A stretch of 64,000 nucleotides of DNA from an uncultured bacterium. Lineage in GTDB: Bacteria > Patescibacteriota > Saccharimonadia > Saccharimonadales > Saccharimonadaceae. Location: contig CAIJKY010000003.1 in NCBI GenBank assembly GCA_903821365.1, positions 62,001 through 126,000 on the forward strand, read 5' to 3'. The notes under the pieces are model-generated. The model saw only the letters and a program-made list of their open reading frames with translations, was not told where the DNA came from and made no database searches. The first letter of the stretch is position 1. Each line of letters begins with the position of its first letter. The translations under genes and the position numbers were made by a program. Positions 7,882 through 10,083 of the stretch are shown piece after piece.

Positions 7882-7963
7882 GTATGGGTCTCCCTTAATA
7901 AGTTACTTAATACATATTCCTCGCATGAGATAACAAACCTCAGGACGCAAGACGTATAGCGAA

Positions 7964-7992
7964 ATTATAGGCAATTTCAACCAATCTGTAAA
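7964..7992 (-). promoter_or_regulatory. Promoter of tuf
   Basis: TTTACA and a consensus TATAAT lie 17 nt apart on the minus strand, about 80 nt before the ATG. The leader ends in a GGGAGA ribosome binding site. Confidence 0.8.
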
Positions 7993-8018
7993 GTGTTTCG
8001 TTGTATTATCCCGTGCTT

Positions 8019-8630
8019 CTACTGAAGCGTGTGCAGCTTCTTGGCTGCAGTGCGTAGAGCACCTTCATGCTCATTGAGCATTTTGAGTGTGTCTACATCA
8101 TCACCATTCAACAATGAAGTCAACTTGTCACAGTACGTGCGTACACCGCGATCAACATAGTAATAGTAACTACCGATAACAACATCGGCTTTGTAATTCT
8201 TGTCCTTGCCGTAGTCGAAAGTGTCGCCGATGATCTTGGCTTCGTCTTCTGAAACGCGAGTGATACGTATCGTTGGCGTCAAACAGCCTCTAAACGACAG
8301 GCTGTCTTCGTCGGTCATGGCCACAGTCGAGGCTTCGGGCCCAGTTTTTGTAAAGTTATAACGAATTTTCTCGGCACGGAGTGGTGATTCGATTGAAAAG
8401 CCAACGTTCCACTCTTTAATCGTAATGACGGCCTGAGTTTTCGCGCCACTAGTTTTTGCGATATAGCTTGAATCGGTGTCACTAACCCCCTGAGCGTTAT
8501 CGTAGCTAATAGTAATCTTGCGATTAAGATCCATAATATTCCAGACCAACAGCGCGACCAGCCCCACGATCACCACTGCGACACCCAGCTCAACCGGACC
8601 TAACTTTAATGTTTTTTTCAGCCCACTCAT
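8019..8630 (-). CDS. Membrane-anchored protein of unknown function between fusA and tuf
   Basis: This 203-aa protein is not recognised. A short basic start (MSGLKKTLKLG) leads into one transmembrane helix at about residues 13-32 (ELGVAVVIVGLVALLVWNIM); the remaining 170 residues would be outside the cell. The ectodomain has two Cys (RGCLTPT and TYCDKLTS) that could pair, a YYYYVDRGVRTYCD aromatic patch and a helical C-terminus. The start has GAAAGG 6 nt upstream. It has its own promoter at 8657-8685 and is followed by the tuf promoter with no clear terminator, so some read-through into tuf is possible. Confidence 0.75.
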   Translation of the reverse strand: MSGLKKTLKLGPVELGVAVVIVGLVALLVWNIMDLNRKITISYDNAQGVSDTDSSYIAKTSGAKTQAVITIKEWNVGFSIESPLRAEKIRYNFTKTGPEASTVAMTDEDSLSFRGCLTPTIRITRVSEDEAKIIGDTFDYGKDKNYKADVVIGSYYYYVDRGVRTYCDKLTSLLNGDDVDTLKMLNEHEGALRTAAKKLHTLQ

Positions 8631-8656
8631 ATATACCCTTTCGTTTGCTTATGAAT

Positions 8657-8685
8657 ATCGTAAACAATAAAGACAACATTAGCAA
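8657..8685 (-). promoter_or_regulatory. Promoter of the 203-aa membrane-anchored ORF
   Basis: TTGCTA and TACGAT lie 17 nt apart on the minus strand. The box faces away from the lipoprotein promoter at 8715-8743, so the two genes share one divergent control region of about 90 bp. Confidence 0.55.
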
Positions 8686-8714
8686 TATGCGGAGAGTGCC
8701 CTACGGATGCAACA

Positions 8715-8743
8715 TTGACTATATATAATATATATGTTATAGT
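8715..8743 (+). promoter_or_regulatory. Promoter of the lipoprotein gene
   Basis: TTGACT, 17 nt, then TATAGT. The sequence after the -10 box (GAAT) is shared with the promoter of the 106-aa ORF at 13342-13369 (TATAGTGAAT in both). Transcription from here gives a leader of about 130 nt containing two hairpins and the left inverted repeat. Confidence 0.75.
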
Positions 8744-8750
8744 GAATTGT

Positions 8751-8774
8751 TAGGCATATTCTTTTATATGCCTA
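8751..8774 (+). promoter_or_regulatory. Leader hairpin 1 of the lipoprotein mRNA
   Basis: TAGGCATAT / ATATGCCTA is a perfect 9-bp inverted repeat with a 6-nt loop. It lies at the very 5' end of the predicted transcript, where it may protect the RNA. Confidence 0.5.
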
Positions 8775-8782
8775 GTTATTTA

Positions 8783-8798
8783 ATAACGGATATCACAC
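8783..8798 (+). repeat. Left copy of a perfect 16-bp inverted repeat flanking the lipoprotein gene
   Basis: ATAACGGATATCACAC is found here and its exact reverse complement at 9981-9996. The matches stop sharply on both sides. The core GATATC is palindromic. The two copies enclose a single gene with its leader and terminator. No target-site duplication could be seen outside the repeats. Confidence 0.85.
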
Positions 8799-8801
8799 AC
8801 G

Positions 8802-8854
8802 GGAGTCTTGCGCTTTGGTTAGGATGCCAATTGCTAACTAATGCGCAAGACTCC
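8802..8854 (+). promoter_or_regulatory. Leader hairpin 2 of the lipoprotein mRNA
   Basis: GGAGTCTTGCGC / GCGCAAGACTCC is a perfect 12-bp stem enclosing 29 nt, inside which GTTAG / CTAAC pair again. It ends 16 nt before the GGAAGGAG ribosome binding site. Such a stable structure in a 5' UTR suggests control of translation or of RNA stability; the ligand, if any, is unknown. Confidence 0.55.
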
Positions 8855-8879
8855 AGAACCCTACGACGGAAGGAGCACT

Positions 8880-9905
8880 ATGCTCCGCATGACACGATCA
8901 GGACTGTACGCTGCAGCCCTCGTTGTGGCGGCCGTGGTGCTTGGTGGCTGTACGCCACCGGTTATCACGCCGCCATCAGCAACGACTACCGCAGCACCCG
9001 CGGCACCGACCTACACCGTCGCGCCCAAGGTGCTCTCGACGCAGCTCAGGGACATCGTACCCGGAGGTGCCGTCGCCAGGACCGAGAACGTCTTCACCAC
9101 CTTCATGGGTGGTGAGTACGCGATCCAGCCGCTGGTGACACAGTTCCAGGCGCTCTCAAGCGAGCAGCGCCAGATGGGGCTCGAAGAGCGTGCACTTCGC
9201 GACACGATCGCGAAGGCGGAAACCCACGGCAGGGTCAACATCCTGCCTGGCAACTTCGTCACCCTCAGGGCGTCGACGCCGCAGCAGTACAGCGGTGGTT
9301 CATACGATCCGAAGGCCATCGGTCTCGGCGCAGTCGAGAACCCGGTCGTCTATCTCGAGTCGCGGGAGCAGAGTCTCCCGACGGTCGTGCTGGTCACCTA
9401 CCGGGCCATCGGCATGACCACACCGACTCAGCCCGACTTCGGGCAGGCATTCGACCGGGTGTACAACGTGCCCGGCGGCATGGCCATCCAGAAGCAGATC
9501 GTCCGTGCTGACGGCAATCTCTACGCCGTCGAGTGGATGGCGCGTACCATCAGCGCAAGCTGTCCGACCAAGCCCAACCCGGGCTGTATCTATCAGTACG
9601 CGCGCACCCCCAAGTACGACCAGACGGCCTTCTTCGGGAGGCGCGACGCACTGGCCGTGCTGAACATCAAGCTGCTGTCGGTGCCCGGTGTTTCGGGCAA
9701 GTACACCGGCGGCGGCGACATCAAGCTGCTGGCAAGCGGTAGCCGGGGCCAACTGGCCCCTATCGCCTCGAGCTACAACAAGCCAACGGTGGAGGGTGAC
9801 ACCACGGGCCAGTTCAAGGCCATGGAGACCCTGCTGAAGCTCGGGGGTGCTGCCTACAGCGGCACTCTCATCGGCTCGCTTCCTGGCTTCGCGGCCATCG
9901 GCTAA
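8880..9905 (+). CDS. Predicted lipoprotein with GC-rich, actinobacterial-like codons
   Basis: The protein has 341 residues from the ATG at 8880, which follows GGAAGGAG; an in-frame ATG at 8841 lies inside a leader hairpin and has no ribosome binding site. The N-terminus is a lipoprotein signal: MLRMTR, a hydrophobic stretch (LYAAALVVAAVVL) and the lipobox LGGC, after which the mature protein starts CTPPVITPPSATTTAAPAAPTYT, a Pro/Thr/Ala linker. The remainder is soluble, with one likely disulfide (SASCPTKPNPGC). No known domain is recognised. Third positions are strongly G/C, unlike the neighbours, and the gene is read opposite to fusA and the 203-aa ORF. A surface role is inferred from the lipobox only. 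Confidence 0.85.
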   Translation: MLRMTRSGLYAAALVVAAVVLGGCTPPVITPPSATTTAAPAAPTYTVAPKVLSTQLRDIVPGGAVARTENVFTTFMGGEYAIQPLVTQFQALSSEQRQMGLEERALRDTIAKAETHGRVNILPGNFVTLRASTPQQYSGGSYDPKAIGLGAVENPVVYLESREQSLPTVVLVTYRAIGMTTPTQPDFGQAFDRVYNVPGGMAIQKQIVRADGNLYAVEWMARTISASCPTKPNPGCIYQYARTPKYDQTAFFGRRDALAVLNIKLLSVPGVSGKYTGGGDIKLLASGSRGQLAPIASSYNKPTVEGDTTGQFKAMETLLKLGGAAYSGTLIGSLPGFAAIG

Positions 9906-9916
9906 CCTCTACTCTC

Positions 9917-9951
9917 GTTGGGCGGCGCTCCACATGCGGGCGCCGCCCAAC
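9917..9951 (+). terminator. Long GC hairpin after the lipoprotein gene
   Basis: GTTGGGCGGCGC / GCGCCGCCCAAC is a perfect 12-bp stem with an 11-nt loop, 11 nt past the stop. It has no U tract, the style common in high-GC Gram-positive bacteria. Confidence 0.7.
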
Positions 9952-9980
9952 AACGAGACGATAGGATCAAGGGGGAGATG

Positions 9981-9996
9981 GTGTGATATCCGTTAT
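9981..9996 (-). repeat. Right copy of the 16-bp inverted repeat flanking the lipoprotein gene
   Basis: GTGTGATATCCGTTAT is the exact reverse complement of 8783-8798. It lies between the lipoprotein terminator and the fusA terminator. The unit bounded by the two repeats is 1214 bp. Confidence 0.85.
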
Positions 9997-10030
9997 CCTT
10001 CCCTTTCGATTTTTATTACATTGTTACATC

Positions 10031-10063
10031 AAAATAGCCACTCTTTTCACGGAGTGGCTATTT
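10031..10063 (-). terminator. Intrinsic terminator of the str operon (after fusA)
   Basis: AAATAGCCACTC / GAGTGGCTATTT stem with a CGTGAAAA-type loop and a T-rich tail on the minus strand, about 20 nt past the fusA stop. Confidence 0.85.
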
Positions 10064-10083
10064 CTTTTTAGCGAAGCTGCTAC

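Follow-up and report, generated by a model that had tools for sequence, protein, structure and literature searches.

Complementary untranslated arms around a GC-rich lipoprotein gene suggest pairing of mRNA ends in a genus of Saccharibacteria

A perfect 16-bp inverted repeat encloses a single GC-rich lipoprotein gene in a Candidatus Saccharibacteria draft genome, and we think it probable that its two arms form a long-range stem joining the 5' UTR to the 3' UTR of a single-gene mRNA. Related arrangements recur around other genes, and we tentatively propose that a sizeable class of GC-rich accessory genes in one Saccharibacteria genus may be expressed from panhandle mRNAs with gene-specific, co-evolving UTR arms, a general mRNA end-joining control apparently undescribed in bacteria. 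We infer that the arms pair in RNA inside the cell and, with less confidence, that this pairing controls translation and mRNA decay.

The lipoprotein locus and its inverted repeat

The window, a 64,000-nucleotide stretch of one contig, belongs to a draft genome of 17 contigs (1.025 Mb, 48.4% G+C) whose fusA gene has named Saccharibacteria as its best matches. An earlier note on this DNA had reported a 16-bp inverted repeat around one lipoprotein gene, and a sequence check confirmed it: ATAACGGATATCACAC at 8783-8798 returns as its exact reverse complement at 9981-9996, and the single ORF between the two arms (8880-9905) encodes 341 aa with the lipobox LGGC. It was also correct that the gene is GC-rich and opposite to its neighbours, with 64% G+C against 48.4% for the genome and with tuf, ORF203 and fusA all pointing the other way. 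The features of the locus are as follows.

8019..8630, minus strand: neighbouring ORF203, lineage-specific
8715..8743, plus strand: predicted sigma-70-type promoter TTGACT-17-TATAGT with extended -10 (TGT), the best upstream promoter-like site, beyond the left arm
8783..8798, plus strand: left arm of the inverted repeat, in the 5' UTR, 81-97 nt ahead of the start codon
8802..8854, plus strand: strong leader hairpin between the left arm and the ribosome-binding site, with 21-nt arms that are 90% complementary
8870..8875, plus strand: Shine-Dalgarno sequence AAGGAG
8880..9905, plus strand: orphan gene for the 341-aa lipoprotein (64% G+C), remotely homologous to two genes of the same-genus genome
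9912..9958, plus strand: GC-rich 3' hairpin without a U-tract, -33.5 kcal/mol
9964..10014, plus strand: weak terminator-like hairpin with the right arm as its loop and upper part; AUUUUUAU follows
9981..9996, plus strand: right arm of the inverted repeat, 75-91 nt past the stop codon
10032..10063, no strand assigned: terminator hairpin between the convergent lipoprotein gene and fusA, with a 12-bp perfect stem and a T-rich tail

The lipoprotein ORF most likely starts at ATG 8880, served by the AAGGAG at 8870-8875, rather than at the upstream ATG 8841. Its promoter scores 12, against a 99th percentile of 10 for random sequence. The structured leader and the GC hairpin terminator described in the earlier note both stood up as structures (z -7.8 for the leader hairpin, at -34.4 kcal/mol, and z -7.7 for the 3' hairpin), but the name terminator seems doubtful for the latter because the U-tract is absent. 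The hairpin at 9964..10014 is much less distinctive, with an MFE of -17.0 kcal/mol and a z of -1.4, and 16 of 200 shuffles fold equally well. In the predicted minimum-energy fold of the whole transcript, left and right arms are paired over 16 of 16 bp. The 16-mer has no further copy in the 1.025-Mb genome with one mismatch allowed; the next closest sites carry three mismatches and are intragenic.

The lipoprotein had no match in Pfam, NCBIfam, PHROG or PDB and no homologue among the plasmids, phages, viral or genome contigs searched; beyond the genus, a single marginal match was obtained in 394 genomes of the family. Neither its leader and trailer nor the other class loci tested (see below) matched an Rfam covariance model at the gathering score. 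The fusA-tuf interval in which the gene lies (window 7882-10083) is a variable slot across Saccharibacteria, with lengths of about 0.1 to 8 kb in relatives and unrelated genes inside. GC-rich accessory genes (57-69% G+C) make up about 8% of all genes in the host genome (G000); most have no homologues, and their codon usage resembles that of the high-G+C relative.

GC-rich genes with complementary flanks in two genomes

The earlier note considered such a repeat very unlikely by chance. This holds for the 64-kb window alone, where we estimate a probability of about 0.02 for a 16-bp repeat at such spacing, but not genome-wide, where by our estimate about 0.7 16-bp inverted repeats are expected within 3 kb; the host genome also holds a 17-bp inverted pair at 2.3 kb. 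Because the genome-wide count within 3 kb is near chance expectation, a lone 16-bp repeat is mildly unlikely at most and is not strong evidence by itself. The excess over chance comes from the gene class, not from the single locus.

To describe this class, the whole host genome was read in stretches and its genes were screened for complementary flanks, with gene calls from a simple codon-usage caller written for the analysis. Among 978 genes with 150-bp flanks, the three longest perfect flank repeats (16, 14 and 14) all came from the 64 GC-rich genes, while swapped-flank controls reached 12 at most. A gene-call-free screen for perfect inverted repeats spaced 250-2000 bp, with an enclosed segment of >58% G+C, yielded 12, 6 and 5 repeats of at least 12, 13 and 14 bp, respectively, compared with 1, 0 and 0 in reversed and 2, 0 and 0 in complement controls; lower G+C classes were near the controls. 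With improved gene calls and flanks restricted to intergenic sequence, 7 of the 86 GC-rich host genes scored at least 13, against 0.44 expected. Flank-to-flank inverted repeats of ordinary genes were at background, and the reversed and complement controls showed no excess.

The sole same-genus genome, G001 (about 59% G+C, 1.2 Mb read, two contigs), gave the same pattern: a score of at least 13 was reached by 17 of its 211 genes with at least 64% G+C, against 1.37 expected, although part of the 17 stem from palindromic terminators that recur in tandem gene arrays, without which about a dozen remain. These terminators mimic inverted repeats and were removed by a self-complementarity filter and by eye. 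The repeat is present in only a minority of GC-rich genes, the G+C cut-offs of 0.57 and 0.64 were set after the data had been seen, and the excess statistics precede the curation by hand that gave a list of 19 genes. About 30 loci of other Saccharibacteria, which hold few GC-rich orphan genes, contained no comparable case, so the class may be specific to the genus; the comparison within the genus spans two genomes, of which the host is a fragmented draft.

Across the class, the arms are 12-28 nt long and their sequences differ from gene to gene with no obvious common core. A lack of U-tracts in arm-bearing genes was a trend only (2/19 vs 67/262, P 0.18). Direct repeats flanking GC-rich genes are likewise in excess, which stems from tandem arrays with common promoter-terminator modules. 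Such arrays of short GC-rich paralogous orphan genes are found in G001 at C2:35223-39556, 823796-825242 and 616584-620656 and in G000 at C10:21350-23775. As in moron arrays, every gene comes with an AT-rich promoter and a palindromic terminator of its own.

Both remote homologues of the lipoprotein are in G001. One of them, C2:930370 (about 26% identity), has a perfect 15-bp flanking repeat of its own, TGATAAACAGGCTGA, unrelated to the host 16-mer, with arms 69-83 nt ahead of the start and 64-78 nt past the stop, and in the order seen at the host locus (promoter, left arm, Shine-Dalgarno, ORF, GC hairpin, right arm). The second (P0002) has no flanking repeat. Three further gene pairs allowed arms to be compared directly. 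An NlpC/P60 hydrolase gene (PF00877; C17:43124 / 1054848) sits at a common locus in both genomes, next to the same conserved neighbours; an orphan gene (C10:12430 / 30216) is found in both downstream of one conserved gene, its proteins being weakly similar and of one loose family; and 815831 and 816584 are neighbouring paralogues with arms. In these two same-locus pairs and the paralogue pair, 7 of 8 left-arm differences are mirrored identically in the right arm, a count based on three gene pairs, which suggests that pairing is kept while arm sequence changes.

Chance had in its favour the number of such repeats expected in a genome of this size and the 17-bp pair. As an account of the repeat at the lipoprotein locus we nevertheless find it hard to credit, since this repeat encloses just one GC-rich gene with its arms at the UTRs, is longer than the 12 perfect bases that bound the swapped controls, and has a counterpart of different sequence and identical layout at the homologue.

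Pairing of the mRNA ends and other readings of the arms

In the mechanism that we propose, the promoter outside the left arm would give an RNA starting about 30 nt before that arm and spanning the leader hairpin, the lipoprotein ORF, the GC hairpin and the right arm. Pairing of the arms would close the ORF into a loop, and could, for example, hold the leader closed or form a double-stranded target for RNase III. The right arm might alternate between its local terminator-like hairpin and pairing with the leader; we offer such a switch as a conjecture, possible because the right arm can form the top of the hairpin ending in AUUUUUAU. An identical layout is found in many GC-rich accessory genes of the genus, with arms that differ between genes and match each other within each gene.

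That the mRNA might base-pair end to end is the idea offered in the earlier note that the evidence supports, through the class excess, the matched arm changes and the predicted fold. Twelve transcripts were folded, and in the MFE structure of each the arms are paired. Of the 19 curated cases, 13 have a strong promoter (score at least 10) beyond the left arm and six are without a clear promoter, and left arms show a strand asymmetry, being richer in A than in T (126:85, P 0.006). Promoter placement, predicted pairing and the A bias would all fit pairing of 5' and 3' UTRs in mRNA. Against this, G.U mismatches between arms are no more common than A.C mismatches (11 vs 10), and allowing G.U weakens the signal. 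That G.U is not favoured counts against RNA pairing and leaves room for a role at the DNA level; small numbers or a strict need for pairing could explain the missing wobble preference. In most cases, the lipoprotein gene included, the left arm lies well upstream of the Shine-Dalgarno sequence, so direct masking of that sequence is not evident; the left arm is near the start codon only in C10:12430, 855593 and 361186.

The mismatch types, which look DNA-like rather than RNA-like, would suit a small mobile cassette, non-autonomous and with one cargo gene, of which the arms are the terminal inverted repeats; so would the foreign composition (64% vs 48% G+C) and the position of the unit, alone in the variable fusA-tuf interval. 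This reading, raised in the earlier note, we regard as unlikely. Neither the rest of the genome nor any of 60 relatives contains the 16-mer, and viral contigs gave no paired match; there is no second copy of the ends, the outer flanks (TTATTTA / CCTTCCC) differ and so give no target-site duplication, and the lipoprotein ORF stands alone inside, with no recombinase or transposase. Moreover, the promoter lies outside the unit, arm sequences vary from gene to gene, and homologous genes keep their arms at one locus in two genomes. The earlier note had set against its own reading a 16-mer absent elsewhere with both copies kept in place by relatives lacking the gene: the 16-mer is indeed absent elsewhere, but no relative keeps its copies.

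A second DNA-level possibility from the same source, an invertible segment, would have recombination between the arms flip the gene relative to a fixed outside promoter and thereby switch a surface lipoprotein on and off. In favour of such a device are the promoter outside one arm, the gene inside, the near-perfect inverted repeats and the surface protein; recombination would also give concerted arm change, and no preference for G.U would be expected. We nonetheless consider it quite improbable, as all clear cases in two assemblies are ON, with the strong promoter on the left (the 13 of 19 above), whereas on the right the promoter score is a marginal 10 at most, in four cases. Same-locus homologues also hold identical orientation, and the arms have no obvious core in common across genes. 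Similar objections meet the suggestion that the arms are two protein-binding operators flanking the gene, to which the palindrome GATATC in the arms and the presence of two copies at a modest distance might point: being gene-specific and absent elsewhere, the arms would require a regulator of their own for each gene, and the right arm comes after the stop codon. We give operators very little credence.

Known systems and further elements

Stems that close a long RNA are familiar from 16S and 23S precursor rRNA, where the flanking processing stems pair, their sequence varies, and RNase III cuts them. The likeness lies in the pairing of both sides of a long RNA and its retention as sequence varies; the difference is that the lipoprotein arms enclose an ORF.

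Among mRNAs, the closest precedent is icaR of Staphylococcus aureus, whose 5' UTR base-pairs with a motif in its own 3' UTR; the pairing controls translation and forms an RNase III substrate (PMC3868564). The lipoprotein arms, one downstream of the predicted promoter and one past the stop codon, would be complementary UTR segments of this type. However, icaR is one gene whose 7-nt motif masks the Shine-Dalgarno sequence, and no such masking by the 3' element was seen for the lipoprotein gene, whose left arm stops 81 nt short of the start codon; the Saccharibacteria class has gene-specific arms of 12-28 nt, usually upstream of the Shine-Dalgarno sequence, in many unrelated genes. In the AapA/IsoA type I systems of Helicobacter pylori, a long-distance 5'-3' interaction renders the toxin message translationally inert (PMC6733600). 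The paired ends of hok mRNA have a like effect. AapA and hok would share with our class the long-range pairing of mRNA ends and a folding conserved at several loci, but they encode small toxins with antisense antitoxins and masked Shine-Dalgarno sequences, whereas the products here are varied, among them the 341-aa lipoprotein and an NlpC/P60 hydrolase. A type I toxin-antitoxin mRNA does not fit the locus itself, its product being the lipoprotein and no small hydrophobic toxin. OppZ and CarZ of Vibrio cholerae are 3' UTR-derived autoregulatory sRNAs that act on their own transcripts (PMC7398697); there too a 3' UTR supplies the sequence that pairs with its transcript, but in the form of processed sRNAs after RNase E cleavage, and the Saccharibacteria arms are longer and near-perfect.

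Pairing of mRNA ends is thus known in itself (icaR, hok, AapA), so far in bacteria for a few isolated genes, whereas a genus-wide covarying class appears to be new; a literature search, with most subscription journals outside its scope, found no report of such a class in Saccharibacteria. If the proposal is true, unrelated accessory genes that keep pairing during sequence turnover would amount to a general regulatory layer, genome sequence alone would reveal mRNA-level control in uncultured epibiotic bacteria, and paired arms would mark those accessory genes for surface and cell wall that come and go in these bacteria.

Several further elements came to light. At G000 C9:62090-62769, a 680-bp GC-rich segment with a strong promoter carries a perfect 15-bp inverted repeat, TGCAAGTTGAGAATC; with no called gene and no Rfam match, it may encode a large noncoding RNA, structured and with paired ends, or be what is left of a decayed gene. 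A conserved stretch, CGGTACC-AGGCGATCCCT, in the leader of the NlpC/P60 hydrolase gene (G000 C17:42957-43124, G001 C2:1055504-1055700) had no Rfam match and is possibly a regulatory RNA element. Finally, G001 C2:576374-577550 and 123362-124238 (also 813180-813270) have 85-105-bp terminal inverted repeats containing GACTTCCACTGGAAGTC; these segments may be mobile units or repeated terminators, and the protein enclosed at 123 kb resembles a type IV pilin.
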